Source of the DNA: a virus
Reading direction: 5' to 3' (one strand)
Virus record (IMG/VR): IMGVR_UViG_3300043399_000057
Span: 1 to 42,156 of that record
Length of the DNA stretch: 42,156 nt
Part shown: positions 12,818-36,509 of the stretch, in pieces
Position numbering within the stretch: the stretch's first letter is position 1
Layout of the letters: each line of letters opens with the position of its first letter
Translations under genes and position numbers: made by a program
Notes under the pieces: model-generated
The model's input: the letters and a program-made list of their open reading frames with translations, nothing else
Told to the model about the DNA's origin: nothing
Database searches by the model: none

Positions 12818-14977
12818 TTAAGCGCCGATTTCGCTGAAGTTGATACCAGAGCGAGCAGCCACGAAGTTCAAGCTGATAAAGTTGATAGAACGGTTTGGTT
12901 TAACGAAGATATCGGCAACGAATTCGTTACGGTCAATAACCTCACCAGTGTTGTTAGATTCGTCGCACTTAACAACGAAGTCTGTGATACCACGGCGACC
13001 TTGTACGTCACGTAGGAATGGTTCAACCATGTTCTTGAATTGAGCGCGAGTGAAACCATCGTTGAATTCAAACAACTGATACTTAGAAGCAGTAGCGATT
13101 GCTTTCTCAAGAACGATAAACAAACGACGAACGTTGATGCGATCAAACGCACTTGGCTTGCTCAACAATGTCTTGTCGCCGAACAGAACAGTACCTTCGC
13201 CTGGGAAAGTAACAACTGGGTTGATGCCTTTCTTGTACAACAAGTCACGTTCAGTCTTGTGTAGGTGAACGGCTAATTTAACTACGTTCTTGATTTGACC
13301 ACGGTTTAGACCACCTGGAGAGAACCAAGCGTCGTTAGTGTAATCAGTGCGTGCGCACAAACCAGCGATATCACCGTTTAGTGGAACCCAACGATATTTG
13401 TCGTTATAACGGTCATATTGGTATTTGAAACCAGAGTCCATCACAGCATAAGAAGTAGATGGCAAAGCATCGCGATAATCAATGATGTCGTCTATGGCAG
13501 TGCCGTTACCGATGATGATAGCACCAGTGCTTACATTTTCTGGAGAAACGAAAACCACGCAATCTTTACGAACCTCAGCAACATTGTTGATAACGTAAGT
13601 TGCAACAGTTGCAGATGCTTTACCTAGTGGAATCAAGCTGATGTCATAAGAAGTGTCATCAGATAACAATTCCCATGCTGTCATTAAATTACCATCAGTA
13701 GAGGCATAATCATCTAGACCGCCAGACAAACGATAGTCATGGTATCCAACGTTATTGAACGCAGTGTTTGCTGCAGCATTACCCCAATTTTGGGCTTCAG
13801 CTGGGTGATCTGCCCACCATACATACTGAGAACGAGAGTTGATAACGTCTTTGTAATAGTTGTTAGTGCCATCTGATTTCTTGGCATCAGAAGCCTTTGA
13901 AACGAATGGGAACTTTTCTAGAATAGCACCTGGAGTTCCAGTCCAACGACCATCGGCATCGATAATGATGATATGTAGTTCATCATTAGAGCCAGAAACA
14001 GAAGCAGCGTAATCAGAAGTTGCTGGAGCAGAATCAAATTCGTCAGAGTGATCCCATGTTGCCCACTCACCTGCGTCACAAACGCCAACGTAGATAGAGT
14101 TTCCTAGAGAACCTGGATATTTTGCAATCCAAGTGCCAACAACAGCGGCACCGCCGATATAGTTTTGTAGGTAATCTTCTGAATTCTTAACTTTGATACC
14201 GCTAGTGATAATTGTAGCAGTTGCAGTAGCACCCAAACCAGTAGTTGGTGGAGTGATAGTGATAGTTGGAGCAGCAGTATAACCAGTGCCAGTCTGTGTC
14301 ATTGTAATACCAATAACACTAGAAGCAGATAGTGTAACAGTACCAGCTTGGGCGTTGATACCGTCACCAGAGAAAGTGATAGTTGGTGGGTTTAGATAAC
14401 CACTACCAGCGTTAGTGATAACAATTCCAGTAACAGCCCCGTTTGCAACAGTAACAGTACCAGTTGCTCTGTTGTTACCTCTTTCTGGAATACTGAATAC
14501 GCAAGTTGCTGCTGTATAACCAGTGCCACCTTCAGCGATAGTAACAGCAGTAACGCCACCGCCAGAAAGCTGGGCAGTACCTGCAGCATTGATACCACCA
14601 GACACTTGTGGTGCAGAGAATGTTACAATAGGAGCAGTTGTATAACCGTTACCTTGGTTAGTCATTGTAATTGCATTTACAAAGCCAGTTTTAATTGTAA
14701 CAGCGTTGCGAGCATTAACAGCGTCAGCGCGAACAGCGATTAGATTGTTTGTGTAAGACAGGAAGTTTGCAGCGGTAAAGAAATCAGCAGCGTTCTCTTC
14801 TACAGGCTTACCAAAAATACGAACTAATTCGTTTTCTGAAGACACTGTTGTAGGAGCCAATACTGGACCCCATTGAAATCTTCCAGCAAAACCGCCAGCA
14901 GAGCTAGATACCGCTGGAACGATTGAAGAAAAATCTTTTTCTGTGACTGCAACGCCTGGAGATAGTTGGAACGGCAT
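12818..14977 (-). CDS. 18: Contractile tail sheath protein gp18 with inserted repeats
   Basis: 719 residues. N-terminal LSPGVAVTEKDFSSIVPAVSSS and C-terminal EPFLRDVQGRRGITDFVVKCDE with NRSINFISLNFVAARSG are standard gp18. Near residues 100-260 the sheath fold is interrupted by four Gly/Thr-rich repeats around a G.GYT.APT.T core; the same repeat type appears in the gp8-like wedge. This insertion probably sits on the outer surface of the sheath. gp18 forms the helical sheath whose contraction drives injection. An AAGGAGA ribosome site precedes the ATG. Confidence 0.96.
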   Translation of the reverse strand: MPFQLSPGVAVTEKDFSSIVPAVSSSAGGFAGRFQWGPVLAPTTVSSENELVRIFGKPVEENAADFFTAANFLSYTNNLIAVRADAVNARNAVTIKTGFVNAITMTNQGNGYTTAPIVTFSAPQVSGGINAAGTAQLSGGGVTAVTIAEGGTGYTAATCVFSIPERGNNRATGTVTVANGAVTGIVITNAGSGYLNPPTITFSGDGINAQAGTVTLSASSVIGITMTQTGTGYTAAPTITITPPTTGLGATATATIITSGIKVKNSEDYLQNYIGGAAVVGTWIAKYPGSLGNSIYVGVCDAGEWATWDHSDEFDSAPATSDYAASVSGSNDELHIIIIDADGRWTGTPGAILEKFPFVSKASDAKKSDGTNNYYKDVINSRSQYVWWADHPAEAQNWGNAAANTAFNNVGYHDYRLSGGLDDYASTDGNLMTAWELLSDDTSYDISLIPLGKASATVATYVINNVAEVRKDCVVFVSPENVSTGAIIIGNGTAIDDIIDYRDALPSTSYAVMDSGFKYQYDRYNDKYRWVPLNGDIAGLCARTDYTNDAWFSPGGLNRGQIKNVVKLAVHLHKTERDLLYKKGINPVVTFPGEGTVLFGDKTLLSKPSAFDRINVRRLFIVLEKAIATASKYQLFEFNDGFTRAQFKNMVEPFLRDVQGRRGITDFVVKCDESNNTGEVIDRNEFVADIFVKPNRSINFISLNFVAARSGINFSEIGA
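14198..14680 (-). repeat. Four-copy G.GYT.AP repeat insertion in the tail sheath
   Basis: Protein-level repeats of about 40 residues. The anchors are QGNGYTTAPIVTF, GGTGYTAATCVF, AGSGYLNPPTITF and TGTGYTAAPTITI, each followed by an Ala/Thr-rich strand. They interrupt the gp18 sequence at about residue 100 and end at about 260. Confidence 0.8.
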
Positions 14978-18792: not shown

Positions 18793-18807
18793 TTATTTAT
18801 TATTTAG
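18793..18807 (-). promoter_or_regulatory. Candidate tandem late promoter before gp13
   Basis: CTAAATAA (18800-18807) overlapping ATAAATAA (18793-18800) on the minus strand, reaching into the stop codon of the PP-loop gene, 17-31 bases before the gp13 ATG. Same tandem layout as before gp22. Confidence 0.5.
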
Positions 18808-19844
18808 TCATCAAGAACATTGTAGAAATCGTTTAGCAAGAACAGCCACTGTGGTCTATAGACGTTGAAGTTTGATATTTTCTTTTCTTTATTCCAAGCA
18901 TAGTGAGCTTCATCAAAATGCTCATCTAAAATCTGCCTCATCTGCCATCTATGAGTATTAGGGTTACCTTTGAATTTAGTGAATGGTTCTTTGGTTGTTA
19001 TAGCCCACTGTTGAAACTCATTCGTGTCGAAGAAAGGAACGACTCGTTTAGCGCGACTTTGCTCTGCCAGTATTCTATGTTCGTACACAGCGGTATACCA
19101 GTCTAAGTTAAAAATACAATACCATCTTAGGTCATTGACGGTTTCTAACTTTCTTGGAGAGTTCTTAATCATAGGTTCTAAGAAGTCTAACAACTCTTGA
19201 TCTATGTTACCTTGGATTCCCTCGTAGATAGTCTCTGGAGTACCCAGTGTGTGGTGAAACATAGCGTTAGGAACATTAGAAAAGAAATCATCTGTTGGAC
19301 CAAACAATTGATTGCCACACATACCACTAACAAAAATACAATCTGTTTGTTTATATGCAAATTGGCTATCTGTTGGGGTTTCTATATCATATTCAAATTC
19401 ATGTCGTAACCTTCTATCAAACAAGTCACCAGACTCGATTATAGAATTGTAAGTACCGTAGATTTTAACTTGACCCCTTGCAGCATACTTGTTTAACAAA
19501 AATAAAATAAAGGTGCTGTCGATTCCACCAGACCACATAACATAAATGTTTTTGTTTCTATCAACAAGTTCTTTCGCTCTTCGTTCGCAAACCTCGAAAA
19601 ATGACATAGAGAAATTGTCATCTCTCGCCAGCATCGGATGTGCCGATGCCTTTATGTTAAGATAGTGTGGAATACTCTGAGATCTATCATAGATCATATT
19701 GTGCTTGTTAAGCCCATGTTTATTGTAAGCGTTTAACAAGTCATCTGAATAATTATTGGCTAGAAATGGTAGAATCTTTTGTTTAGACTCTAGAATAATT
19801 CTAGGCACTTCGTGTGTGTTATAGTATAGAATCTCTGGTTTCAT
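18804..19844 (-). CDS. PP-loop ATPase, asparagine-synthase-like (no glutaminase domain)
   Basis: 346 residues from the ATG at 19844, which has an AGGA ribosome site. An in-frame ATG at 19892 would lie upstream of a terminator hairpin and is rejected. The PP-loop SGGIDST (about residues 105-111) is the AMP-forming N-type ATP-pyrophosphatase motif. FVSGMCGNQLFGP (about 171-183) matches the asparagine synthase SGEGADELFGG segment, but with Cys/Asn replacing the acidic pair. There is no Cys2 glutaminase domain. Such enzymes adenylate a carboxylate, as in asparagine synthase, lasso-peptide cyclase or beta-lactam synthetase. The substrate here is unknown. It sits between a TRAP-like binding protein and gp13 and has its own leader, so it may be a separate late unit. 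Confidence 0.8.
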   Translation of the reverse strand: MKPEILYYNTHEVPRIILESKQKILPFLANNYSDDLLNAYNKHGLNKHNMIYDRSQSIPHYLNIKASAHPMLARDDNFSMSFFEVCERRAKELVDRNKNIYVMWSGGIDSTFILFLLNKYAARGQVKIYGTYNSIIESGDLFDRRLRHEFEYDIETPTDSQFAYKQTDCIFVSGMCGNQLFGPTDDFFSNVPNAMFHHTLGTPETIYEGIQGNIDQELLDFLEPMIKNSPRKLETVNDLRWYCIFNLDWYTAVYEHRILAEQSRAKRVVPFFDTNEFQQWAITTKEPFTKFKGNPNTHRWQMRQILDEHFDEAHYAWNKEKKISNFNVYRPQWLFLLNDFYNVLDD

Positions 19845-19858
19845 AATATTCCTAAACG

Positions 19859-19881
19859 AAAAAGGGAGCCGAAGCTCCCTT
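19859..19881 (-). terminator. Intrinsic terminator after the TRAP-like gene
   Basis: An 8-bp perfect stem (19862-19869 with 19874-19881), UUCG tetraloop in the minus-strand RNA and a run of five U. It lies 18 bases after the TRAP-like stop and before the PP-loop gene start, so it ends the radical SAM operon. Confidence 0.88.
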
Positions 19882-19882
19882 G

Positions 19883-19890
19883 TATTTATC
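19883..19890 (-). promoter_or_regulatory. Candidate late promoter overlapping the terminator
   Basis: GATAAATA on the minus strand matches the T4 late box TATAAATA at seven of eight positions. A start six bases downstream would fall inside the first arm of the terminator, so transcripts from here could not form the full hairpin and would read on into the PP-loop gene. Confidence 0.4.
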
Positions 19891-19898
19891 ACTTCAGA

Positions 19899-20843
19899 TT
19901 AATGTAGTTGAATCTTTTCAACTAGACCTGTAGTAAAGTAGTCTGCAAACTTATCATAGACTGGTGCAGTAACTTGTTTAAAACGTGCTTCTTGTTCAAC
20001 AGTCATCTTAACAACTTCAACACCCTCAGCTTTACATTGAGCCAAGATGTTTGGGATGTCTGCAACAGATTCGCGACGTTCAGCGCGAGCAGCATTGAAC
20101 GCAGCAGTAGACAAGATCTCTTGAGTTTCAGCATCGAACTGTTTAAAGAAGTCTTGGTTGACGATGATAGATGTCAAGAACAAGCTGTGTGCTGTATCGT
20201 TAACAACTTTGAAAGACTTGTGTTGATCTAGTGGGAACACGCGAACGTAAGTGGATTCACCAGCTTCGATCAAACCTGCATCTGCTGCAGCGTTCATTTC
20301 TTCTAGAGCAATGTGTTCTTTTGGTTCAGCGCCTAACAACTTAAAAGTCTCTACAGCAACTGGAGAACGGCTAGTACGAACAGTACGACCTTGCCATGCT
20401 TCTACAGTATCAGCCTTAAAGTTAGCTGGAACAACACGGTATCCACCAGAGTAAGTGAAAGACATAGCGTGTGTGTTAGAATTCTTGGCAACACCAGCCA
20501 ATAGTTCAGTGCCAATCTCACCTTCTAGAACAGCATCCGCATGGGCGTGATCGCGGAACAAGAATGGTAGATCTAGAGCATGTAAGTCTTTGTTGTAGTC
20601 AGCTAACCAAGTAGTGTAGATATGGCTCATTTCGATAGTGCCATTATCGACCAACTTCATTAACGCATCTTTGGTGATCTTTTGACCGCCATTATACTTG
20701 TTTGTGTAGTCAGTCAAAGAAAGAACTTCGATGTCAAATGCACCGTTTGTTTTCTCGTTTACTTCTTTAGCGAAACGCTCTGCTACTTTTAAGAATAAGC
20801 CAATAGGCTCGTGAGCGATAACCCATTTTACGTGCTTAGTCAT
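19899..20843 (-). CDS. TRAP transporter DctP-type solute-binding protein without signal peptide
   Basis: 314 residues spanning the whole DctP-type fold. The N-terminus KWVIAHEPIGLFLKVAERFA is the first strand/helix of the mature domain; LDLPFLFRDHAHADAVLEG and WQGRTVRTSRSPVAVETFKL follow, then the family's Asn/Gly segment and a helical C-terminus. The Arg in RTSRSPV corresponds to the carboxylate-binding Arg of TRAP binding proteins. No signal peptide or lipobox is present, so the protein should stay in the cytoplasm or enter the virion. No TRAP membrane subunits are nearby. It overlaps the 103-aa gene by eight bases (AGGAGA ribosome site inside that gene), and a terminator follows. The ligand is unknown. 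Confidence 0.85.
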   Translation of the reverse strand: MTKHVKWVIAHEPIGLFLKVAERFAKEVNEKTNGAFDIEVLSLTDYTNKYNGGQKITKDALMKLVDNGTIEMSHIYTTWLADYNKDLHALDLPFLFRDHAHADAVLEGEIGTELLAGVAKNSNTHAMSFTYSGGYRVVPANFKADTVEAWQGRTVRTSRSPVAVETFKLLGAEPKEHIALEEMNAAADAGLIEAGESTYVRVFPLDQHKSFKVVNDTAHSLFLTSIIVNQDFFKQFDAETQEILSTAAFNAARAERRESVADIPNILAQCKAEGVEVVKMTVEQEARFKQVTAPVYDKFADYFTTGLVEKIQLH

Positions 20844-21147
20844 TTTTGCTTTCTCCTAGCTTTGTTGTGTCAAAGACCCACTTTTGCGTGTAGTCTTGGA
20901 AATTCATTATTCGTTTTATAACATAAACCTTTTTATTTATAAGTTCTTTCATAAATTCAGGTTCTGGTATCTCTTCTTTATTTATAAAAGAAGAAACTGG
21001 TATAACCGTATCTCGGTGCCCATATTTTTTGGTATTCGAGTCGTAGAAAAAGTAGTCTTTCATATAAAACCACTCTTCTCTACCGTCCCTGCCCATCTCT
21101 CTTGGGTATTGAGATATTTCAATCAGGTGTTGTTTTATAAAGCTCAT
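20836..21147 (-). CDS. Hypothetical 103-aa protein coupled to the radical SAM gene
   Basis: 103 residues, MSFIKQHLIEISQYPREMGR to KLGESKND, rich in Tyr, Phe, Lys and acidic residues and free of Cys. Its ATG overlaps the radical SAM stop (ATGA) and its stop region overlaps the start of the TRAP-like gene, so all three are coupled. It could be a helper or recognition subunit of the radical SAM enzyme, or a small virion protein; no motif settles this. It is not Cys-rich, so it does not look like a classical thioether precursor peptide. Confidence 0.75.
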   Translation of the reverse strand: MSFIKQHLIEISQYPREMGRDGREEWFYMKDYFFYDSNTKKYGHRDTVIPVSSFINKEEIPEPEFMKELINKKVYVIKRIMNFQDYTQKWVFDTTKLGESKND

Positions 21148-22526
21148 GCTGCAAGAATTGGAATAACTTTATTCTTTCTTTTAGTTTCTGGCTTACCATG
21201 AGTCCACCAATAGATATCTTTTCGGTCTTGTCTCAATGGACCATCGATGTACTCTGGGATACATCCTGTCATCTGCTCAAATGCAACGCTGAATGCCACG
21301 ATGTTATCGCTAAATGCGTTATTACAAGAGATCTCCCACAAGTCGCCAGTCAAGAACATACAAGCACCTTTACAGATATGAACTACTGGGCACTTTGGAC
21401 ACTCTTCGCGTTCACTTAGATGCGTAGAAGTTTTTAGGTTGACATTGTTAAGATCTGATACATTACCAACTAGATGAGAAATACCAGATGGGTTTGTAGA
21501 AACAGCGCTGACATTCTGGCAGGTCAAAACATTACCATTTAAGTCTACTGCGATATTTTCTTTCTTGTCCATACCACACTTTTGTGTGACTGAGTCTAGT
21601 CTAACACCTGTAGCAACGGACTTGATAAAATCAGTCACTTTGTCGTGAGAAGTGATAAACTTGGTTACTTTACCCGTGCGATACTCACTCAATGAAAGGT
21701 TTCTAAACTGAACTTCTTGTTCTTCATCCAACAAGGAATTTTGAGCACCACCTTCATCGTATGCATCTACGAACGTGCCTTCTCCGATAACCAAGTGTTG
21801 TGTATACTCATGACTAATATTTTCAGAAATAAATTTAATGAAATATTCTTCAATAGAAGCTCGGCTAATGTTCTTAGCATTGATCATTGCATTGAAGCTA
21901 AACTTACCTTTGGGAGCAAACTTTTTGTAAGTTTGAATAATAGCTTCTTTAGATTCTGGGTCTTGTAGTGGGTCTGGACCTCTGACAAACTGCCCTGGAC
22001 CATCGTGTGAAACTGAAATAGAAAAGTTATACTTGTCTAACCATAAAATCTTTTCTTGGTCCAACAAACTGCCGTTAGTTATAACTGAAAATTCAACTTC
22101 AGGGTATTTTTTGAAAATCTCTTCAACCAGTGGTTTCATAGTTTTCCAATACACAAATGGCTCACCACCCCACAACTCTATTCTAGTGCCTTTACCAGAA
22201 CCATCTGGTCCACCATCGAACCATGTCTTCATGTTATTGACAAATGGAGATACGTCTTCTGGGTTTGTTGAATCTGCATGAGGTACAAATCTTTGATTGC
22301 AGTATTCGCATGAAAAGTTGCAAGAAAGACCAAGTTGGATTTTGATGATCTTTAGATCACCTTTACCTGACACGATTTTAGCAACTTGTTTGGTTGGTGT
22401 GGTAACAGAGTCTAGAAAAATATTCTCACCGCTGTGATCAGAGATAATGTTTACCTCAGTATCGTATGAGAACTTTTTGTGTTTTTGATCGCTGGGATCC
22501 CATGCTTTAATTTCAAATATAGCCAT
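21144..22526 (-). CDS. Radical SAM enzyme with SPASM-type C-terminus
   Basis: 460 residues. The 4Fe-4S motif CNFSCEYC (Cys69, Cys73, Cys76) follows QLGLS, and ELWGGEP (117-123) is the SAM-binding glycine motif. The C-terminal third has Cys317, then AVDLNGNVLTC (Cys336), and a cluster CPKC...C...C (Cys376, 379, 385, 389) plus Cys401, the SPASM auxiliary-cluster arrangement found in peptide- and protein-modifying enzymes such as anSME, PqqE and RiPP maturases. It would act in the cytoplasm on a peptide or protein side chain. It lies behind a fibre gene whose C-terminus is Cys-rich, which suggests but does not prove the substrate. A hairpin separates it from the upstream gene; a GGAA ribosome site is present. 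Confidence 0.9.
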   Translation of the reverse strand: MAIFEIKAWDPSDQKHKKFSYDTEVNIISDHSGENIFLDSVTTPTKQVAKIVSGKGDLKIIKIQLGLSCNFSCEYCNQRFVPHADSTNPEDVSPFVNNMKTWFDGGPDGSGKGTRIELWGGEPFVYWKTMKPLVEEIFKKYPEVEFSVITNGSLLDQEKILWLDKYNFSISVSHDGPGQFVRGPDPLQDPESKEAIIQTYKKFAPKGKFSFNAMINAKNISRASIEEYFIKFISENISHEYTQHLVIGEGTFVDAYDEGGAQNSLLDEEQEVQFRNLSLSEYRTGKVTKFITSHDKVTDFIKSVATGVRLDSVTQKCGMDKKENIAVDLNGNVLTCQNVSAVSTNPSGISHLVGNVSDLNNVNLKTSTHLSEREECPKCPVVHICKGACMFLTGDLWEISCNNAFSDNIVAFSVAFEQMTGCIPEYIDGPLRQDRKDIYWWTHGKPETKRKNKVIPILAA

Positions 22527-22542
22527 ATCTATTCCATGTTAT

Positions 22543-22562
22543 AAGGGGTCATAAGACCCCTT
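22543..22562 (-). terminator. Hairpin between the 325-aa gene and the radical SAM gene
   Basis: A perfect 8-bp stem (22543-22550 with 22555-22562, arms AAGGGGTC and GACCCCTT in the minus strand) with a TTAT loop, three bases after the upstream stop. It lacks a U-tract, so it may be a weak terminator, an attenuator or an mRNA-stabilising hairpin that lowers radical SAM expression relative to the fibre. Confidence 0.6.
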
Positions 22563-22564
22563 GT

Positions 22565-23542
22565 TCAAACTAATGTATAAGTTAATGTTCGGTGGTTAGA
22601 CCAATATTTATAACCGATCTTTGTGACGATCTCATCTCCAGCATCTAGACCAATAGTTGACACTTTGAATTCAGCAGTGCCGTTCACTACAGGAATCTTA
22701 GTTTTTGCCAAGAAACCAGAGACTTGTTCTAGGTAGATATAATCAACATCAGCTGCTTGAACAGTTACGGTGACTGCTGTTTCTGATTGAGTTACGTTCA
22801 AGATATCAATAGCGTCCATTAGGCTTTCGTGCAGTTTGCCTACAACTCCACCAAATTCTAGTTCTGTATCAACATCTACACTGTGTGTTGCCCAACCAGT
22901 TGTATCAACACCAGCGTATGGATTACCGTTTAGATCATCATATGGAAGATCTTCGCTTATATTTTCAATTTCTTGAGGAACAATCAAAACCAAAACTATA
23001 TCTTCTGGAGTTGGGTTGTCTTTGGTCACAAAGAAAGAAAACACGTTTTCAGGAGCATACATTACCTTAGACTTTGTTGCCAAAGTAGAACCATATGCAT
23101 TGATGATATCAACTTTATTGATATTTTCTGGTTCTTTCGGTAAGAATGGTGTTTCTATTTCAGTAGAAATAGATGTCATCCATTCACTACGATTTTCTTC
23201 TATATTTTTCTTTAGCGTAGTAGGATTGATAGTATAAACACATTGCCCAGCTAGATTAGCAAAATTGTTTAGATCAATACTAATATCAACAAGCTGTCTA
23301 TTTTCAGTTTCATTTCTTAAGATGATAGTCAATACACTATCATCTTTTGTGATGTTATATTTGAAATTTACTGGTGCGCCCTCGTGCGCAGCGAACAATG
23401 TCTGGCTATTTTCAATGACTGAGTAATCAACACCTTCAATTTTAGCGGCTTCGACATGAGCTAGAACCCAAGCATCATCTATAAATTTCATCGCTGGATC
23501 AGCGTATCTTCTAATATGTTGTTTATGTTTTACATATTTCAT
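22565..23542 (-). CDS. Unknown beta-rich protein next to the tail fibre
   Basis: 325 residues, MKYVKHKQHIRRYADPAMKF to HRTLTYTLV, with AGGAATC ribosome site. The first 60 residues look helical, the middle holds extended strands (TIILRNETENRQLVDISIDL), and the last 90 resemble an Ig-like strand sandwich (SETAVTVTVQAADVDYIYL). No catalytic or metal motif and no signal peptide are seen. It starts 13 bases after the fibre gene stops and is closely coupled to it. It could be a second adhesin, a fibre chaperone or a scaffold for the radical SAM enzyme. I do not recognise the family. Confidence 0.75.
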   Translation of the reverse strand: MKYVKHKQHIRRYADPAMKFIDDAWVLAHVEAAKIEGVDYSVIENSQTLFAAHEGAPVNFKYNITKDDSVLTIILRNETENRQLVDISIDLNNFANLAGQCVYTINPTTLKKNIEENRSEWMTSISTEIETPFLPKEPENINKVDIINAYGSTLATKSKVMYAPENVFSFFVTKDNPTPEDIVLVLIVPQEIENISEDLPYDDLNGNPYAGVDTTGWATHSVDVDTELEFGGVVGKLHESLMDAIDILNVTQSETAVTVTVQAADVDYIYLEQVSGFLAKTKIPVVNGTAEFKVSTIGLDAGDEIVTKIGYKYWSNHRTLTYTLV

Positions 23543-23554
23543 TTCTGATTCCTA

Positions 23555-24742
23555 TTAGCAGTTACAGTTACAGTTTCTGCAGTTAGTAAAATGGTGGTGT
23601 GGATCCATATAACTACCAGTATCTAAGTGTAATCTAGACCAACAGTTGTTTGAATGGTGGTTTCCAGGTTGGTGTGCGTGGTTACCAGCGCCACCTGAGC
23701 GACCCCATGTCCATCCTTGGTCGTTGTGTTTAGTATTATGCGGAACCCAAGCACCATAGTTACCCAAGTCGTTGGTAAACTGAGAAAGGTGTCCAGGGCG
23801 ACCTGACACGTTACCCCATGCAACGCTAGAAGCAGAACCAGCGTTACCGCCGATGTTAGTAACAGTTAGAGCACCTGTCATACCTTGAACAGATGTTACA
23901 GGTACGTTAACAGTAACAGCGCCTGTCATACCTTGAACAGATGTTACGTTTGCATTGATTGTTGGGTTACCAGAAACACCATCACCGTTTGATATAGAAA
24001 TACCACTACCTGCAACTACAGATCTAACTGTGGCAGCGCCATCTGATGTTCTAACTACGATACCAGTCCCTGGAAGAGATGATAGCGCAGATAAATCAGA
24101 GTCGTACGGTTGAACGTGCGTACCGATTGTTAGACCAAGAGTGGCACGCGCAGTAGTTGCATCACCATCGTCTAACAAAGTTCTGGCATATGGTGTCAAG
24201 CTAGTAGTATCAGCAGTACCAAGACCTGTATAGTAAGGTAATGTATTGGCTGCAGATGTTGTAGAAGCTAGGGCATCTAACTCTAGATTCCATGCTTGCA
24301 CATCAGAACCAATGGCTAGACCCAAGTTAGTTCTAGCGCCAGCTGATGTAGATGAGCCAGTACCACCATCTGCGATTGCCAAGTCTGTGATACCTTGGAT
24401 CAAACCGCTGGTGATAGCTGCTTCGCCAGAAAACTTACCTGAGAAATTAGCAGCTGTGATTACGTTGGCTTCAAAGTTACCTGAAGCATCACGAACTACT
24501 GCAGAGCTTTTATCAGCACCAGCTGGTAGCAATACAGACGCGCTATAACCATCTAGTAAGTCGGCATCTAAACCAGAACCGCTACCGTCAACTGTTTTAA
24601 GTTTAGTTAAGATATCAGCTGCATTATAATCAACAGCTGTTAATTTTGTGGCTAATTCGTTGTTCAGGTTACTAAAGTTTGCATCGACTTCAGCGTTAGT
24701 CAGCGGACTTCCTTTAGTACCTCTTAATGTAATAACTGCCAT
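23555..24742 (-). CDS. Tail fibre protein with His-rich and alternating-Cys C-terminus
   Basis: 395 residues. The start [20 protein letters not shown] and following [13 protein letters not shown] are common to T4-like fibre proteins; the middle has tandem A-x-L-G-L-T/A-I-G and [13 protein letters not shown] repeats typical of trimeric fibre shafts. The last 60 residues change character: Gly/His-rich ([21 protein letters not shown]), ending NCRNCNCNC with Cys at 388, 391, 393 and 395. His and Cys could bind metal as T4 gp37 HxH motifs do, or be modified by the nearby radical SAM enzyme. It is at the T4 short-fibre/whisker position, upstream of the radical SAM cluster. GGAT is the only ribosome-site-like motif. 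Confidence 0.88.
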
Positions 24743-24753
24743 TTAAGGATCCT

Positions 24754-24993
24754 TTATTTTTGCAAAATTTGGAGAATCAAAGATTTTATCTCTTGCAATT
24801 CATTCTTTATATTATTTATCTCTTTGGTATTATGAGAAATTTGATCCATCTTTTCCTTTTGGATTCTGGCTTCTTCTCTTCTCTGTAGATACCTTTGAAC
24901 TTCGGTCTTATCAGTATTTATGATAGCCCCGTTAGAGACATCCCTAACTAGGCTATCATGACCAGCAACCTTCAGTCTATCACGCACAAGCAA
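24754..24993 (-). CDS. Small coiled-coil protein upstream of the fibre
   Basis: 79 residues, MLVRDRLKVAGHDSLVRDVS followed by NGAIINTDKTEVQRYLQRRE and a heptad-like tail (NTKEINNIKNELQEIKSLIL). The opening 'LVRD..VAGH..L.RD...GAI.NTD' pattern is seen in small phage proteins encoded beside baseplate/tail genes. The start overlaps the end of the 2093-aa gene by 14 bases. It may be a structural connector or assembly factor. The function is unknown. Confidence 0.75.
   Translation of the reverse strand: MLVRDRLKVAGHDSLVRDVSNGAIINTDKTEVQRYLQRREEARIQKEKMDQISHNTKEINNIKNELQEIKSLILQILQK
24813..24820 (-). promoter_or_regulatory. Candidate late promoter for the fibre gene
   Basis: ATAAATAA on the minus strand, inside the 79-aa gene, 71 bases before the fibre ATG. 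Same box as before other structural genes, but intragenic copies occur elsewhere, so support is weak. Confidence 0.3.
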
Positions 24994-27900
24994 TAACTCT
25001 TAAATCTTTAATTCTAGGAACGGCTGAACTATTTGTTGACTTCATTACAATCTTAACAACGATATTGTCGAATGGAGCCATGTTATCGATAGTGTAATCA
25101 CAGTCGTAGAACGATTCATTTCCATTCTGAACTTTAACTAAATTGGAATCTGGTGTTGCCAGTGTATATTTAGTTGTTGTTAATTTAGTCTTGTCGCCAA
25201 CACAAGTCTTGTAGTATACAAGTACATCTGAAGAGTTAGGGATATTTGCAGCAAACTTAACTCTAACATTAGTAGATACGTTTTCCAACTTGACTGCAGA
25301 AGTAACGTACTTGCTTAGAGATGAGCTGCCGTTAGGTGAAATATCATCCAAGAACAGTTCTCTGATTGAAACAGTTGTACCGCTAACAGAACTCTCAGCA
25401 GTGAAAGTTGTGTCTAGAGTCAAGGTGCCAGTTGTGCCATCGTCTGCGTAACCAGTGATTAGAACAGTCTTGTTGTTAGCACCAGTTGTAGCGCCAGCAA
25501 TAGTGATGTACTTGCCGATAGAAGCAATAGCCATTGCAGTTCTAACTTCAGCGTCTGTAGATGTTATAGTACCACCAGCGGTAAAGTTAAACACACCGTC
25601 TGTGTGAGAGAAAATCTGCTTAACGTCTAACGCTGATACGTTGACATTAGACTCTGATGGGCTATTGATCTTGTTAGAGATAGCAATCAAACTTGTACGA
25701 GCAGTATCAATAACTGGTGACACTGCATCGTTAGAAGTTTGCAAACGAGCAGAGAATGTCAATGACTTGTTACCAGACATCAAGCTGTTTTCGTTTGGTT
25801 CAGAAGAAATAACTCTTGGAGTGTAGAAGTAGTTATTGTCCTTAACCAAGCAAGGAGAGAATCCTGTATCAATCACATAAGGAGTTTCGCCACCATCAAC
25901 AGACTTACCTGATGTAGTCTTCACTGAGAATGAAGCGTTTGTATCAGAGAATGTTTGCATCTGAACAGATGGAACCAATACGTCGTATTGAATGTTTGCA
26001 GTGGCTCTAACACCCAGACCACCAGCATATCCAGTAGATGTAGCTGCAGTAGTAGTTGCGATAGTATAAGAATTCATATCAACGTTTGAAATCAAGTGTT
26101 CTTTGTTGAACTCTGATGCTGGAATACCGTTGATTGCAGAAGCAACGCTGTCGATAACAACTCTAGAGCTAACAGTCATACCGTGGTCTTTGTGCCATAC
26201 ACGAACTGTTGTAGAACCTACAACAGTCTGGAATGGATCGTTTTCGATCTCAACGTATGGTAGAACGTCGTTAACAAACTCTACGTTACCGATAACGCTA
26301 GTGTCAAATTGTGCTCTGTAAATAGAGAACTTGATATCTTGGTTCTGATCAGCTGTCCATGTAGAAGCGTTTTGTGATTTAAACATAACACCAGCATAAG
26401 GCTGCTCAGAAATAGTTCTGCTAGTTCCAGGAATCGTATCACCTACGTTAGAGATCCAAACCTTGTAGTTGTTTGAATCAGACAGTAGAACAAAACAGTA
26501 TTCAGCGTTGTCTTGAACGTAAACAGGAGTTTCGAATGTAAACGATGTTGCTGTATTGTAGTCAGCGTATGATACATTGTCTAGAGTAACAGCAGTGTAA
26601 CCAGCAGCAACTGGGTCTTCGCCAGCAACTGGAGCGTTAACAACTTCTGGCTTTAGAGTAACTCTAGAGAATGGAAGAATATTCTTACCTGGATATCCAT
26701 TTACCATCTCTCTGATTTCAAGAGAAACTGGCACTGCAACATCTTTAGTTGCAAAGAACACATCAATCTTTGTCAAGAAAGCACCACCCTTTTGCTGAAC
26801 CAAGAATGATTGAGCAAGTGGATCGTACCAACCTGTGTCTGAAACAACGCGCTCAGATGTTTGGTAGATTGTTTGTCTAGCTTCTGGATCGTCGTTTGGA
26901 CCAATAACTTCTTTAACCAACTCTGCGTTACGAACAGCGTTGATGATAGATTGTTTAGTCTCTAGAACACCTTGTGCTCTGTACATACCACGACCACGAG
27001 ATGTGAATTGTCCGTTAACAGTTGGAGTGTCTACCAACTTCAATTCTCTAGAACCAGTGCGGAATCTAACTGAATCTGTGTTAGGGATATTGAACAAGAA
27101 GTTAACTTCACCGTTCTTGTTAGAAACCAGAGTAGTTGGAGTTGATACAGAAACAACAGTACCTGTTGCTCCAGAAACAGAACCAGAGAATGACTGCCCA
27201 ACTGCAAATGTACCTTTAACGTTAGCCAATTCTAGAGTTAATGTATCTGTTTCTGGATCGATAGACTTGCTAATAACTACGGCAGAAGCAGTTTCTAGAG
27301 AGTTGGTAATAACATCACCACGGTTCAAGCAAACTTGAGAATCACCGTTAATTCTACGCTTTGTTTCAGAAGAAGCGCCACCAACGTTTGTGTCAGTGTC
27401 AAATACACCAACTCCAGCTGTGTACACCATTTTAATAGATGGTGTAACAAAAGAAGAAATGTCGATGTCATCAAAGAATGGATAGAAACGTGTTTCTGGC
27501 TTCATACCCTTTACCTGAACTAGAATATTTCTAGAACGGATGTAAGGAATTGTTGCAGTAGAAACAACACGTTCACCAACTTGTTGATAATCAGTCTTTG
27601 TCGCTAACTTAGTTCTGATGCCAGTTCTTGATTGACCAACTGGTGTAGCCAAAACTTCACTTACAACTTGACGGATAGCCCAGCCACCTGCTTCTGGACC
27701 AACACCGAATTTTGCATCAAGGGCAGCACCGCCATCGCCACTACGACGATCAGCAGAGTAGCTACGTGTACCTTGAGAAATTGGTTGACCAATCCACTCA
27801 TCTTTCCAAGCACCCCAAACAGTACCATAACCGTTTTCTTGGATAGTGCCAGACTTGATTGCCAACTCGCGAATCAAGTTGTAGTTACCTTCTACATTAA

Positions 27901-30900
27901 TGATGTCTGGAGCAACTTTGTTAGTTTCAAACCAATCATCAGAAGGTGGGTTGATGCTAACGTTACCCAAGAATGTAAAGATTGCAAATGGGTTAATGTT
28001 TTCTAGTCTAGAAGCATATTCTTGCTTGACCAAAACTTTGTTTGCAATGATAGGCAATGTGATAACATCACCATTGATCTGGTAGTTAGAACTATCGCGT
28101 TGGATATCAGTAGAGTTCTTTTCCAACAGATTAACGTTTTTCATAGTGTAGAATGGACGCAACTCACCATTGTTCATGTCAATAGAACAGTAGTAGTCAG
28201 GAGAGCCGACGTTACCGATATTGTTACCAGTAAAGTTATCTACAATGAAACCATTCTTTGTTCTGTCTAGACCGTACTCGTCTGTTATCTTAAGAGACTG
28301 AGTTTCTTGCTCTAGTAGAGAAAGAGAAGTGTAGTATTCTAAGTTGTTGATTCTAGTTTCTAGCTTACCAATGTCGCGCATTGTGTAACGCTTGTTTTCT
28401 AGTTTCTGAACATTAACGTTGTTTGACTTAGTGCCAAATGTGTATGGTTCTAGTGTGATGTTATACAACACCATACCCAAAGCTGGATCTTGAGGGTCAC
28501 CTGGATTTAGAGATGATACGCCAGCAACAGAGAAGAATTTACCGTTGAAGTCGATAGCAATCTTATCTTTTCTAGCAAGGTAGTAGCTAAAGTCTGCTAG
28601 GATGTCAATACCACGTTTTGGAATTGATGTTAGAGAAGAACCTGTGCCAATAAAGTTTCTAGTAGAACCAGCGCTCTTGTTGGCTACACGTGGTCTAAAG
28701 TCAATTGCATCGCGGCAGTTAGCGGGGATTGACTTGTAATCAATGTTTGTGTAAGAGTTAACATCAAAGTAGTCACCAACACCATGTTCGAAATATTCGT
28801 ACTGGATTCTGATTGGGCTGTTTGGAGCGCTATAAGACGCTTTAAGAATTAGTCTACCTAGATCATAGTGTGTTGTGCGTTGACCATCATCAAACTCGTA
28901 GAAGTCTGTGATGTCTGTTGTGTAATCTTCTGGCGCTGGAGTTGAACCAAACGCAAAACCACTAGCCATTTTAACACTAATCAATCTAAACACGTCAGCG
29001 TGTTCTAGCAAGATAGTAGATGCTTTGGCGTCAGAAGCGCTAGTCAAAGTCATTGGTGTTGCTGTTGTTAGAGTCTTTGTTTTCTCGAAAGAAGAACCAG
29101 AACGAACAACAGCTGCAATAACAGAGATAGAACGGTTTGCTCTGCCAGATGGAACCAATACAGTCAAGTTAGAACCAGATGGAGTCACAGAGTCTGGTGT
29201 GAATACTTCACCGCCTGCAGTGGCATCGTTATCAATAAAGATATAGTTGTCTGTTTCTGCGTAAGAAGCAAATGTACCAGAGATAGAGAATGTAACTGAT
29301 GTGCCAGTTGCAGTCTGGGTAATCTTTTGGTAGCATGTATAGCTAGTGTCGTTGATACCACCAGTACCAGCTTGACGCATAGATCTAACAGCGTAGTATG
29401 GTAGTGGGAACAACAGAGAGTTATTTCCTGGTTCTACAATTTCTGTTGTTGCCAAGCTATATGCTTTGCCTGTGAACGAGAATGTAGATGGAACAGTCGC
29501 TGCTTCTTGGCTAGATGGATTAGCAGTAATACGAACCATCTGTCCGTCGACTACGATGTAATCACCTGCAGAAAGATCTGTCTGGAATGATGTTCCAACA
29601 CCAGTTAGTGTACCGCCAGAAGCGCTAACAGAACCAGAAAGAGTAGATGTTACTGGATCAATATCAGCAGAGAAGCTCAACTGAGGATCTCCAGAAACGC
29701 TGTAGTAGAATGATTTTACATCGCGGTTGAAGTCAAACCCGTTGTTCATTTGAACATCGAATAGACCAAGTTTATAAACAGAAGATGTGTTAAACGGCAA
29801 GCCAGTGTGCCATTCAATAAAGCGAATACGGGCAGTACCAATATTGTTACCAACTGCAGTACCGCGACCGCTAGATCCTGTTATTTGATCATACAAACGA
29901 ATTGTGTCATATGAGTCAACTGGTGGCAAGTTGTTCACGTTCTTAACAAGAACATAATTACCAACAGTGGCTGGAATAATAGCGTCAACGGCTTGAGCGT
30001 ATTCTCTGGACTTTGATACTGGAAGATATGTTGTTGAGTCTTTTTCGATCTCATAACCGCGAACATATGCCTTACCAGCTTCTAGTCCGATAGCTAGTTT
30101 TGTTTCATCGCCATTCAAGTAGATACCACGGTTGTAAGCTGGAGCTTCTGTGTATTCCCAGTTGATACCTGTAGAACCTGGACCGTCATATGCAGTTCCA
30201 GTTGTATGAGTTGGAGCAGTTGTTACAGATGAGCCGCTGTTTTTCGCAACGTATAAGTTACCGCCGTGTGCAACAATATCACCAATCAAATAGCTAGTGT
30301 TCTGAGCCCAAGCGCCACGATCGTTGTTACGGTGTTCTCTGATATCGATTGCAAATTCTTTTACAGTGTAGTCACCAGATTCGTCGTAAGTTCTACGAGC
30401 CAATTCTTTGCCAATCAAAGAATACTCTGTTGTCTTAACGATTGTGTCTACAGTACCATTGTTAACACGAATCAATTCTACAAAGTCTTGATCGTCTGTA
30501 TCATCAAGTGCTTTCTTAATAAGAATCAACTCAATGTAGTAACGGTGAGCGCCTGGAGCAGCAAAGTTGTAGCTGTTTTGTGCATTGTCCAAAAGAGTTT
30601 CGTCTTCTTCTGGAGTAATAACTTTCTCACTAACATCCAAACCAACTCTGTATGTTGGGCTATTTGAATATTTTTCTAGAATAATTGTTTGTTCTTCAAC
30701 TAAACAGAAGTGACCATTGATGTAGTAGACACCTTCTTTAACTGTGGCCAAAGAACCTTTACCGACTGCTCCAGTAGAAGCAGCTTGGAAAGAGTAAGCA
30801 CCGTCTTCAGTCTGAATAACTTCAGAGTTTGAGAATGTTTTTGTTTGTCCATCATTACCTGAGTTTAGATAACGGACATACAATGTTGTTGGATCAGATT

Positions 30901-31261
30901 CTTCAGCGCTTTGAGTTTTGATAACTTGCGCCTTCACGCCGCTAGAACCAATGATAATCTGATCTTTAAGGCTAGTCAAAAATGTTTCGACTGCAACGCC
31001 AGAGTACAAGGAAACTAATTTAACGTAATCAGAACCTTGGTTTTGTTGTGTTACAGTTTCAACAGACGCTTGACCTGGAATGACCATAGCACCTTGCTTA
31101 AAGATAGCATCGCCATGTCTCTTAATTTGATTCTGCAGAATAGTCTGCATTTGAGTAAGTTCACGTGCTTGAACTGCAAATGAAGGGCGATACAAGATTC
31201 GGTAAAACTTTTTACCTTCTTCAAAGTCATCATTATACGGTTCTGTGTTGAAATCTATCAT
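24980..31261 (-). CDS. 10: Giant DUF4815 virion protein, gp10-like baseplate/fibre connector
   Basis: 2093 residues. The N-terminus IDFNTEPYNDDFEEGKKFYR then RPSFAVQARELTQMQTILQ and the KQGAMVIPG segment are the DUF4815 signature found in large structural proteins at the gp9/gp10 position of cyanophage-type genomes. A carbohydrate-binding-like module lies at about residues 318-372 (WAQNTSYLIGDIVAHGGNLY, TAPTHTTG). The long remainder is beta-rich. It probably forms the baseplate periphery to which fibres attach, a role split over gp9, gp10, gp11 and gp12 in T4. An ATAAATAA box lies 34 bases upstream of the ATG. The symbol 10 is by position and cyanophage usage, not proven. Confidence 0.8.
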   Translation of the reverse strand: MIDFNTEPYNDDFEEGKKFYRILYRPSFAVQARELTQMQTILQNQIKRHGDAIFKQGAMVIPGQASVETVTQQNQGSDYVKLVSLYSGVAVETFLTSLKDQIIIGSSGVKAQVIKTQSAEESDPTTLYVRYLNSGNDGQTKTFSNSEVIQTEDGAYSFQAASTGAVGKGSLATVKEGVYYINGHFCLVEEQTIILEKYSNSPTYRVGLDVSEKVITPEEDETLLDNAQNSYNFAAPGAHRYYIELILIKKALDDTDDQDFVELIRVNNGTVDTIVKTTEYSLIGKELARRTYDESGDYTVKEFAIDIREHRNNDRGAWAQNTSYLIGDIVAHGGNLYVAKNSGSSVTTAPTHTTGTAYDGPGSTGINWEYTEAPAYNRGIYLNGDETKLAIGLEAGKAYVRGYEIEKDSTTYLPVSKSREYAQAVDAIIPATVGNYVLVKNVNNLPPVDSYDTIRLYDQITGSSGRGTAVGNNIGTARIRFIEWHTGLPFNTSSVYKLGLFDVQMNNGFDFNRDVKSFYYSVSGDPQLSFSADIDPVTSTLSGSVSASGGTLTGVGTSFQTDLSAGDYIVVDGQMVRITANPSSQEAATVPSTFSFTGKAYSLATTEIVEPGNNSLLFPLPYYAVRSMRQAGTGGINDTSYTCYQKITQTATGTSVTFSISGTFASYAETDNYIFIDNDATAGGEVFTPDSVTPSGSNLTVLVPSGRANRSISVIAAVVRSGSSFEKTKTLTTATPMTLTSASDAKASTILLEHADVFRLISVKMASGFAFGSTPAPEDYTTDITDFYEFDDGQRTTHYDLGRLILKASYSAPNSPIRIQYEYFEHGVGDYFDVNSYTNIDYKSIPANCRDAIDFRPRVANKSAGSTRNFIGTGSSLTSIPKRGIDILADFSYYLARKDKIAIDFNGKFFSVAGVSSLNPGDPQDPALGMVLYNITLEPYTFGTKSNNVNVQKLENKRYTMRDIGKLETRINNLEYYTSLSLLEQETQSLKITDEYGLDRTKNGFIVDNFTGNNIGNVGSPDYYCSIDMNNGELRPFYTMKNVNLLEKNSTDIQRDSSNYQINGDVITLPIIANKVLVKQEYASRLENINPFAIFTFLGNVSINPPSDDWFETNKVAPDIINVEGNYNLIRELAIKSGTIQENGYGTVWGAWKDEWIGQPISQGTRSYSADRRSGDGGAALDAKFGVGPEAGGWAIRQVVSEVLATPVGQSRTGIRTKLATKTDYQQVGERVVSTATIPYIRSRNILVQVKGMKPETRFYPFFDDIDISSFVTPSIKMVYTAGVGVFDTDTNVGGASSETKRRINGDSQVCLNRGDVITNSLETASAVVISKSIDPETDTLTLELANVKGTFAVGQSFSGSVSGATGTVVSVSTPTTLVSNKNGEVNFLFNIPNTDSVRFRTGSRELKLVDTPTVNGQFTSRGRGMYRAQGVLETKQSIINAVRNAELVKEVIGPNDDPEARQTIYQTSERVVSDTGWYDPLAQSFLVQQKGGAFLTKIDVFFATKDVAVPVSLEIREMVNGYPGKNILPFSRVTLKPEVVNAPVAGEDPVAAGYTAVTLDNVSYADYNTATSFTFETPVYVQDNAEYCFVLLSDSNNYKVWISNVGDTIPGTSRTISEQPYAGVMFKSQNASTWTADQNQDIKFSIYRAQFDTSVIGNVEFVNDVLPYVEIENDPFQTVVGSTTVRVWHKDHGMTVSSRVVIDSVASAINGIPASEFNKEHLISNVDMNSYTIATTTAATSTGYAGGLGVRATANIQYDVLVPSVQMQTFSDTNASFSVKTTSGKSVDGGETPYVIDTGFSPCLVKDNNYFYTPRVISSEPNENSLMSGNKSLTFSARLQTSNDAVSPVIDTARTSLIAISNKINSPSESNVNVSALDVKQIFSHTDGVFNFTAGGTITSTDAEVRTAMAIASIGKYITIAGATTGANNKTVLITGYADDGTTGTLTLDTTFTAESSVSGTTVSIRELFLDDISPNGSSSLSKYVTSAVKLENVSTNVRVKFAANIPNSSDVLVYYKTCVGDKTKLTTTKYTLATPDSNLVKVQNGNESFYDCDYTIDNMAPFDNIVVKIVMKSTNSSAVPRIKDLRVIACA
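30146..30310 (-). other. Carbohydrate-binding-like module in the gp10-like protein
   Basis: Residues about 318-372: aromatic W...Y..G..V...G.LY spacing followed by TAPTHTTG and INWEY, like small ChiC-type carbohydrate-binding modules. The same pattern recurs twice in the gp8-like wedge. Confidence 0.6.
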
Positions 31262-31294: not shown

Positions 31295-31302
31295 TTATTT
31301 AT
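31295..31302 (-). promoter_or_regulatory. Candidate late promoter before the 2093-aa gene
   Basis: ATAAATAA on the minus strand, overlapping the stop of the gp8-like gene and 34 bases before the ATG at 31261. Confidence 0.45.
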
Positions 31303-34358: not shown

Positions 34359-36509
34359 TTAGAATAAAATTTCTGTTCCGACGTACAATCCACTATCATT
34401 TAAGAAAAAGCCAGCTTCACCGTAAGGGTTAAACTCGATAATACCACCTGAGTCTACAACTTCACTGATATCAATACCAGAAATTGTAGGGTCAATAATC
34501 TTCTCTAATATGAATGCGGGGACTGTTCTATTTAGGTCGGATCCCGTTACATCTTCCATAACTACGTGTTCGTAGTTAGTTCCACCGTCATAAAGAATAT
34601 GAGCGTCTAATAATTTTTCCATATCAATGATAGCTAAACCAGTTCTGGTTCCATCTAACATTGGATATTCTGGTTCGATCATGACAACAGATTGTGGGTC
34701 ATAAACCCCATCATAGTTCGCTACAGTTTCATCAACTAATTTATTAAATGTCATGTACGGATAAGTTCTTTCCATACCGTACCCAGTTTCATCAACTGGC
34801 ATAACATTTTCTTGATCTAAATCACCATCATAATTTAGCGTTGTTATCGTGATAGTCTTATGAGAATCAAAGAATGGACCAGTACGATCTAGACCTTCAC
34901 CAACTTCAGAAGACATAAACACTTCATGACCTTCGACCAAACCATCGTAGTTTGGTGTAGTGTTTATAATGTTCTTTCCAACTAACAAGTATGGATAAGT
35001 TCTGTCCATACCAGTACCAATTTCGTCGAATGGGATAACTACATGCCCTTCTAGAGCATTATTGTAGTTTCTCACATAATCGTCTAGATACTTGCTAAAG
35101 TGTTTTATCTCAATTAAGTTTTCAGCAGTAACTTCTTCACTCTTAGAAAGAGTCAAGATTCTGATTAGAGATTCTAGTTCTAAGCTGATGTCGAATTCGT
35201 TACGAATATCGTATTCACCAAACATAGCCATACCAGCTGGGTGAATCAAGTTCTTGACTGCAGTCTTATAACGATCTAGAGTCTCGTCGATCTTAATAAC
35301 GTAAGAAAACGCTTGATAGTATCTAGAGTCTTGGATATAAATCGCGTCATCCAAGAAACCATCGTTGTTAATATAGTAACCTGGATACTTTGCAAGAGCA
35401 CCAAGTTTAACTTTAATGATAGCTGGGTTGCTGTCTGTTACTTTAGAGTCGATAGTAGAAATACCGAATTCTCTAAGCACGTTACCTGCATAAGTACCGT
35501 CAATGGCAGGGGCAGTTGGGTTCGCTGGATCGAATGCGTAGTCAAACGTGTTGATTGTACCGCTTTCAGAATAACCATCCAAACCTTCTGAAATATTAAG
35601 ATTAGAACCAATACGCTGAATAACAGTACCAGATGTACCAGAAACATCCTGACCAGACTGAGCAGAAATTGTAGTTGTAAAGTCTGTGCTGTAACCTATA
35701 CCGTATTTAATGAATTGAGCTAGTTCAATACCACCAGTAGAGTTAACTTTAGAAACTTTTAGAATAGAACCATAACCGTTAAAGTTACGGATATTATACA
35801 GCTGACCAACTTTAAATCCAGAACCTGCTTGTTGAACTTCTAGAGCAGTTGTTGTTGCTAAAATCTCAGCAGTAAAGTAAACACCCTCTGCATCATTTCT
35901 GTAACGTAGTCTGTCGCCAACTGAAACATTACCAAAGAATCGACGATCGATTAGAAATTCATAAACAGTATCAGACAAACGAATTGTTCGTTCAACTTCA
36001 ACTTCAACGTCTTGTCTTCTATCAACTAGAACACGAATAATTTTATTTGGTGTGATAACATCAACTAATTTACCAACAACATCGTTTGGTGTACCAGTCA
36101 ATATCTTGGCAAAAACAGAAACGTCTTGGTTCCATTTACCGTCAGATGCGCGAAGCATTTGTTTAGAAGGATAGTCAATAGACACTTCCTTGTTAAACAA
36201 AATTCTGAATAGCAACTTAAATGATGCTTCAGAACCCTTTGCTTTGTACTGATCTTTAATATGCTGTAGTAAGAATCTTTCACTAACAGTAGAATATGGA
36301 ATGTTTGACCCATATTCATTTCTAAAGTGTTTGATGAAACTGTCTAGTGTACTATCTAAATCTCTCAGAGTCTTTAAGTCGACTTGTGTAGATTCTAGAT
36401 ACGTGTAATACGCTTCTAAGAACGAAACGAATGTATCGTATTCTTCTCGTACAAACTCTGGTAGCTGATTTGCTACCAGAGTTGAAATCTTAGGTTTTGT
36501 TAATGCCAT
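34359..36509 (-). CDS. 7: Baseplate wedge protein gp7-like, with C-terminal tandem repeats
   Basis: 716 residues. The start MALTKPKISTLVANQLPEFV, then REEYDTFVSFLEAYYTYLES and QYKAKGSEASFKLLFRILFN, is the family seen between gp6 and gp8 in cyanophage-type genomes. Position gives gp7, though T4 gp7 (1032 aa) is longer. The last third carries five repeats of about 39 residues (34480-35071) with NYDG, an acidic E.G.G.DRT.P segment and aromatic ends. The ATG overlaps the gp6 stop (TAATG). It would form part of the wedge around the hub. Confidence 0.75.
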   Translation of the reverse strand: MALTKPKISTLVANQLPEFVREEYDTFVSFLEAYYTYLESTQVDLKTLRDLDSTLDSFIKHFRNEYGSNIPYSTVSERFLLQHIKDQYKAKGSEASFKLLFRILFNKEVSIDYPSKQMLRASDGKWNQDVSVFAKILTGTPNDVVGKLVDVITPNKIIRVLVDRRQDVEVEVERTIRLSDTVYEFLIDRRFFGNVSVGDRLRYRNDAEGVYFTAEILATTTALEVQQAGSGFKVGQLYNIRNFNGYGSILKVSKVNSTGGIELAQFIKYGIGYSTDFTTTISAQSGQDVSGTSGTVIQRIGSNLNISEGLDGYSESGTINTFDYAFDPANPTAPAIDGTYAGNVLREFGISTIDSKVTDSNPAIIKVKLGALAKYPGYYINNDGFLDDAIYIQDSRYYQAFSYVIKIDETLDRYKTAVKNLIHPAGMAMFGEYDIRNEFDISLELESLIRILTLSKSEEVTAENLIEIKHFSKYLDDYVRNYNNALEGHVVIPFDEIGTGMDRTYPYLLVGKNIINTTPNYDGLVEGHEVFMSSEVGEGLDRTGPFFDSHKTITITTLNYDGDLDQENVMPVDETGYGMERTYPYMTFNKLVDETVANYDGVYDPQSVVMIEPEYPMLDGTRTGLAIIDMEKLLDAHILYDGGTNYEHVVMEDVTGSDLNRTVPAFILEKIIDPTISGIDISEVVDSGGIIEFNPYGEAGFFLNDSGLYVGTEILF
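34480..35071 (-). repeat. Five-copy 39-residue repeat in the gp7-like C-terminus
   Basis: Copies begin NYNNALEGHVV, NYDGLVEGHEV, NYDGDLDQENV, NYDGVYDPQSV and LYDGGTNYEHV, each followed by an acidic segment ending in (M/L)(D/E/N)RT.P in four copies and a closing amphipathic stretch. Confidence 0.8.

Follow-up and report, generated by a model that had tools for sequence, protein, structure and literature searches.

Why does a virus with a T4-like backbone carry a radical S-adenosylmethionine (SAM) enzyme close beside its tail fibre? The question was raised by a 42,156-base virus record (IMGVR_UViG_3300043399_000057; the window, meaning the whole stretch of DNA analysed). In this window, a cluster of six genes includes a fibre with an alternating-cysteine tail at its C-terminus and a radical SAM enzyme with a SPASM domain (rSAM). 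A sequence-only reading had proposed that the cluster either chemically matures the fibre tip or makes and holds a small ligand during infection. We found that the enzyme and a terminal Cys run occur together over a wide range of phage carriers. The comparative evidence linking rSAM to the tail appeared strong, and we consider it probable that rSAM modifies the Asn-Cys tail of the adjoining fibre post-translationally. The names 'fibre' and 'tip' were assigned from homology and gene position.

The enzyme and the cysteine tail of the fibre

The rSAM scored above the cut-offs of Pfam Radical_SAM PF04055 (33.2 bits against 29.5) and of the SPASM model TIGR04085 (33.7 bits against 27), and the cluster cysteines were invariant, which upheld its earlier naming as a radical SAM/SPASM enzyme. 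It also matched PHROG 1802 (E 2.7e-68). The SPASM pattern CX9-15GX4C - CX2CX5CX3C - C was found across 40 relatives, at C317-G331-C336, C376-C379-C385-C389 and C401. Because seven SPASM cysteines cannot fully ligate two clusters, an open site was proposed for AlbA, and CteB shows an open cluster site (PMC6231123). By analogy, the phage rSAM may also have an open cluster site. The structure model had a predicted local distance difference test (pLDDT) score of 88.7. The solved folds nearest to it were the anaerobic sulfatase-maturating enzyme (anSME; E 1.8e-13), ChlB, CteB, TigE, SuiB and SkfB, all of which modify peptides or proteins.

The fibre ended in NCRNCNCNC, in agreement with the alternating-Cys tail described earlier. 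A CxCxC ending was present in only 5 of the 7512 other open reading frames (ORFs) of the relatives' loci, and the tail is thus far beyond chance. The Cys codons were a mixture of TGT and TGC in 79 of 136 tails. This mixture meant that the tail was kept at the protein level, and it ruled out a DNA microsatellite as the origin. The run was the exact end of 92 of the 136 tailed ORFs; the search required the remaining ORFs to end no more than 9 residues after the run or to have a Hint start. A His-rich stretch comparable to that preceding the tail was found in loci L009, L013 and L022.

Pairing of the enzyme with cysteine-tailed proteins

Profile scans with rSAM gave at least 530 relatives among 599 stretches of viral contigs, of which 80 were kept, and 98 relatives in bacterial genomes, of which 80 were also kept. 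Pairing was counted at loci with at least 4 kb upstream, as an ORF on the same strand that ended in CxCxC no more than 5 kb upstream of rSAM. Such an ORF was present at 60 of 64 viral loci and at 51 of 65 bacterial genome loci. Two of the four viral exceptions (L011 and L021) ended in FINCRNCNC, just off the CxCxC pattern. At L076, the tailed ORF lay slightly more than 5 kb from rSAM. The genome exceptions L269, L274, L275, L277, L278 and L280 had a more distant type of rSAM and were apparently non-phage. L285 carried two rSAMs, and its Cys-rich proteins, one of which contains an Mtd_N domain, follow another pattern. The untailed relatives were mostly in apparently non-phage clusters or in short, truncated or degraded loci. 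In a reciprocal DNA search for NCNCNC followed by a stop, most in-frame fibre-like matches with room downstream had an rSAM.

The tail was carried by diverse proteins. They fell into 31 N-terminal clusters, a rough count that includes artefacts of miscalled starts. Parsimony on the rSAM tree required at least 34 changes of carrier type, a number that is also rough as some starts were miscalled. The weight of the pairing evidence comes from this breadth of carriers, and little of it from the T4-like fibre family.

The pairing was also followed from the fibre side, and the first 109 residues of the window fibre were searched in viral contigs. Where 4 kb or more lay downstream, 9 loci had both tail and rSAM, 29 had neither, and at 6 loci rSAM was present but the searched-for fibre had no tail. 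All six carried another Cys-run ORF beside rSAM, and three of them (L323, L324 and L353) had only distant rSAM relatives. When any tail was scored, the sample gave 15 loci with both and 21 with neither (Fisher p 1.7e-9, inflated by relatedness). One 42-residue ORF was discordant and is probably spurious. In an enlarged T4-like fibre set of 69 loci, 39 carried the tail together with a close rSAM, 30 had neither and none was mixed; many of the 39 tailed loci had been chosen through rSAM. Co-occurrence, which the sequence-only reading had named as a check, was seen in both directions, and fibre-tip maturation withstood the refutation test set by that reading: rSAM in related phages was almost never without a nearby Cys-tailed protein, and where T4-like fibres sharing the N-terminus had no rSAM, they were also without the tail.

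The pairing occurs in culturable phages. In the Achromobacter phages JWF and 2-1, a PHROG 1802 rSAM with 42% identity over the whole length lies beside a Cys-run fibre, which is gp028 in JWF. These phages differ from the window in being siphoviruses, in having a Hint domain after the Cys run and in carrying another accessory gene. No published link between their rSAM and the fibre was found. In some carriers the run is followed by a further domain. The Cys run is directly followed by CFPAG and a Hint-type domain in JWF, 2-1, L228, L249, L270-L272 and L279. In L323, L324 and L353, NYSDxRLK comes directly after an (NYCTCNC)n run and opens an S74-type domain, the rest of which lies in another ORF in L323 and L324. 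Domains of the Hint and S74 families are known to self-cleave. If they do so in these carriers, the mature protein would again end in the run. At each of L323, L324 and L353, two to three rSAM genes were observed beside the (NYCTCNC)n protein.

A related arrangement was found in Campylobacter phage CPt10, where an rSAM of the L324 type (gp141) lies 2.3 kb from gp145 (L363:5047-6651). The (CNYCTCD)n repeats of gp145 are the same as those in L323, L324 and L353. However, the CPt10 enzyme belongs to another subfamily than that of the window, with 32% identity to that of L324, and the repeat is internal. CPt10 has about 11 rSAM genes. A search for CxC runs found only gp145, and the rSAM near position 17800 had no Cys-run neighbour. 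Pairing with a fibre tail could account for only one of these about 11 genes. Timms et al. described 21-bp repeats and an unusual number of radical SAM genes in CPt10 and proposed a role in host metabolism (PMC2853527).

Distant rSAM relatives were also observed in other surroundings. At the six genome exceptions listed above, from Variovorax/Ramlibacter and similar genomes, they stood beside large maturase-like ORFs. In L274, the relative was located with a 69-residue ORF beside a YcaO/SagB fusion, in a cluster resembling those for ribosomally synthesized and post-translationally modified peptides (RiPPs). It is possible that these six loci are RiPP clusters not yet studied.

Proposed chemistry and competing explanations

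The rSAM is like the CteB/SCIFF, AlbA, PapB, TigE and SuiB maturases in its fold, its radical SAM motif and its two-cluster SPASM domain, and in each case a Cys-rich partner is encoded next door. In contrast to these systems, the phage partner is a large fibre, and its Cys run forms the extreme C-terminus. Genes for a leader or for export were not seen in the phage system, and the model had no complete RiPP recognition element (RRE). SPASM enzymes modify Cys-rich precursor peptides, and the phage rSAM would act on the fibre tail in a similar manner, with the Cys tail as its substrate. The enzyme would use an Aux I cluster with an open site, the arrangement that CteB shows and that was suggested for AlbA. 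The product would be a cross-link, either a thioether or some other carbon-sulfur or carbon-carbon bond, formed inside single chains of a trimeric fibre or from chain to chain. Cross-linking was guessed from the enzyme class, and it has about an even chance of being the right chemistry. The product may stabilise or cap the distal tip, or it may join the host-contact surface. The full proposal is that many tailed phages, T4-like and siphovirus, use a dedicated radical enzyme to form covalent cross-links in the alternating Cys tail of the fibre tip, and that self-cleaving Hint or S74 domains expose the tail in some of them. It would be a virus-encoded, RiPP-like finishing of a host-contact surface that was undescribed before, and we regard the odds for and against this proposal as balanced. 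No report linking a radical SAM enzyme to a tail fibre was found in the open-access literature, and priority is therefore not certain.

Several points weigh against modification of the tail by rSAM. The argument is one of guilt by association. The rSAM scored far under the cut-off of every named peptide-maturase family, with 64.3 bits for the PapB ranthipeptide maturase NF047865 (equivalog cut-off 340), 41.6 bits for the SCIFF maturase TIGR03974 (equivalog cut-off 425) and 42.1 bits for the anaerobic sulfatase maturase TIGR03942 (cut-off 349.45). Residues 1-60 were modelled as a three-stranded sheet without the RRE helices, which leaves substrate recognition unexplained. On the fibre tree, rSAM and tail changed jointly only about three times and the loci are non-independent, so the statistical weight within the T4-like fibre family is small; an independent-pairs test on the T4-like fibres had too few contrasts for significance. 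No tail was detectable at the rSAM relatives L254, L255, L260, L268 and L283 or in the Variovorax/Ramlibacter clusters. In addition, probably non-fibre, unrelated phage proteins end in NCNCNC without rSAM (L101, L104, L149 and L159), which meant that such a tail can exist without the enzyme. L167 and L179 also had probably unrelated phage proteins with this ending, and an rSAM of the same family was absent from the locus.

These last proteins would fit an explanation in which the Cys tail and the His-rich stretch bind metal ions or an Fe-S cluster at the tip, and rSAM acts elsewhere or only helps in loading. The Cys- and His-rich end of the fibre is also consistent with it. However, metal binding does not account for a tail that is paired with a full rSAM/SPASM enzyme on such a variety of carriers, and many tailed carriers have no His-rich stretch. 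We consider this explanation unlikely, and it is the one that survives best among the alternatives.

Slightly less likely, in our estimate, is that rSAM acts like anSME and converts the tail cysteines to formylglycine, which would place reactive aldehydes at the tip. The target of anSME is a protein and not a small peptide, it is the nearest solved fold, and the rSAM homologue of JWF is annotated as an anaerobic sulfatase-maturating enzyme. However, Gln337 of rSAM stands after the second SPASM Cys, where anSME has its catalytic-base Asp (D277, PC-D). This replacement was the reason for setting anSME chemistry aside as the first choice. The known CxPxR-type target is also missing in the phage, and the low score for the sulfatase maturase model given above argues in the same direction.

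Neighbouring genes and the place of the cluster

The T4-like backbone that had been claimed for the window was confirmed by matches to structural genes: portal, sheath, terminase, sheath stabiliser, head closure, head-tail adaptor and baseplate wedges. A near-identity search of phage records with the window gave 0 matches. The six ORFs were located where the sequence-only reading had placed them. They lie between a protein of 2093 residues (24980-31261) and the neck genes, in the order fibre, Ig (immunoglobulin)-like accessory, rSAM/SPASM, 103-residue protein, signal-less DctP-type protein, terminator and PP-loop protein (Table 1). Elsewhere in the window, glycine-rich GGTGYT-type repeat inserts were observed inside the tail sheath, and the baseplate wedge proteins had structural-protein matches in common (12818-14977, 31302-33884 and 34359-36509 for these observations).

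Table 1. Positions of the cluster features in the window.
Feature	Position	Strand	Support
Tail-fibre gene, 395 aa, T4-like N-terminus, proposed substrate	23555..24742	-	PHROG tail fibre / structural protein matches
C-terminal Cys tail NCRNCNCNC, then stop; proposed modification site	23558..23584	-	
His-rich stretch preceding the Cys tail; possible metal site, by analogy only	23585..23683	-	
Accessory protein, 325 aa, Ig-like beta-sandwich C-terminus	22565..23542	-	model pLDDT 85.8
Radical SAM/SPASM enzyme, 460 aa, proposed fibre-tail maturase, PHROG 1802	21144..22526	-	
Radical SAM cluster motif C69-x3-C73-x2-C76, invariant in 40 relatives	22299..22322	-	
SPASM domain, exactly seven invariant Cys: C317, C336, C376, C379, C385, C389, C401	21324..21578	-	
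103-aa protein, ATGA-coupled to rSAM, family in 28 viral loci	20836..21147	-	
DctP-type TRAP (tripartite ATP-independent periplasmic) solute-binding protein, 8-base overlap with 103-aa gene	19899..20843	-	
Intrinsic terminator-like hairpin AAGGGAGCTTCGGCTCCCTTTTTC, ends the rSAM/103-aa/DctP run	19862..19881	-	
PP-loop ATPase-like protein, 346 aa from ATG 19844, SGGIDST loop	18804..19844	-	

Homologues of the accessory protein adjoin rSAM at 66 of the 81 viral loci and at 46 of the 73 loci from genomes. Its fold search gave weak Ig/CBM56-like matches in PDB and unnamed phage proteins in BFVD, and it had 0 matches in named phages and in plasmids. It is probably a tip adhesin, a chaperone or a presenter. 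The coupling of rSAM, 103-residue and DctP genes noted earlier was present, with the ATGA overlap at 21144-21147 and the 8-base overlap at 20836-20843. The DctP-type protein scored above the cut-offs of PF03480 (150.8 bits against 23.4) and NF037995 (114.7 bits against 50) and kept the solute-binding fold. By eye it had no signal peptide, and the ORF began directly in the mature domain, likewise in relatives. This agreed with the description of a signal-less TRAP-type protein.

The hairpin was found between the DctP and PP-loop genes, where a terminator had been read before, and the PP-loop gene is therefore probably a separate unit. It probably starts at ATG 19844, because a start at GTG 19892 would run through the hairpin and relatives start approximately at the ATG. 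In the case of the PP-loop protein, the proposed asparagine-synthase likeness did not hold. It depended only on the SGGxDST loop, and PF00733 aligned over 27 residues with 13.5 bits, below its gathering cut-off of 21. The nearest solved chains were nitrile synthetase (E 0.005) and LarE (E 0.09), with about 33 residues aligned. The PP-loop protein had 0 matches in named phages.

Among 40 viral loci with good flanks, 21 carried DctP and PP-loop genes, and 12 carried 2-oxoglutarate (2OG) oxygenases of the PF13759 type, which were never found with DctP/PP-loop. This exclusivity may reflect lineage. DctP/PP-loop were confined to part of the T4-like lineage, and 2OG-Fe(II) oxygenases replaced them elsewhere. 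The DctP, PP-loop and 103-residue proteins would be a lineage-specific add-on.

It is improbable, to about the same degree as formylglycine formation, that the six genes form one pathway in which the PP-loop and DctP proteins make and hold a small carboxylate ligand for the fibre or for infection. The genes are coupled and recur together at the 21 loci, and the solute-binding fold of DctP is kept. However, a terminator separates the genes, many rSAM/Cys-tail loci have no DctP/PP-loop, the 12 loci carry oxygenases instead and the asparagine synthase model fails. The proposal of the sequence-only reading was partly supported: the pairing of rSAM with the tail favoured fibre-tip maturation, and the small-ligand part found no support, since DctP/PP-loop are limited to some of the T4-like phages and the AsnB cut-off was missed.

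The position of the cluster resembles that of the pelagimyophage host recognition cluster, which lies between VrlC and gp14 (PMC7029224). It is very unlikely that rSAM is an auxiliary metabolic gene for host metabolism that sits by chance in a hypervariable host-recognition cluster: such a role was proposed for the Campylobacter phage radical SAM genes (PMC2853527), and radical SAM cassettes were recorded without explanation or function in the pelagimyophage cluster (PMC7029224), but the pairing is with one short feature over many carriers, in T4-like, siphovirus and prophage loci.

Further neighbours were observed in single contigs. L008 carried a second DctP-like gene with an apparent signal peptide (L008:18503-19471) on the same contig as a signal-less one. 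The T4-like contig L308 carried a tryptophan-halogenase-like gene (L308:15010-16131; PF04820, E 7.8e-95), and several oxygenase-like genes stood there beside a Cys-tailed mini protein and rSAM. Further modification of the fibre by such oxygenase and halogenase neighbours is thinkable.

With regard to the modification of the fibre tail by rSAM, the same pairing of fibre and enzyme recurs in more than 100 related viral and prophage loci. The recurrence points to chemical finishing of the fibre tip in many phages, which may use this fibre to touch their host. If this is true, a widespread class of phages would mature a virion structural protein with radical chemistry so far known from peptide natural products and a few enzymes. 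Many phage radical SAM genes that still lack an explanation, with at least 530 relatives in one scan, would also gain a function. The finding may also bear on a puzzle open since 2010, namely why the Campylobacter phages CP220 and CPt10 carry about a dozen radical SAM genes (PMC2853527).

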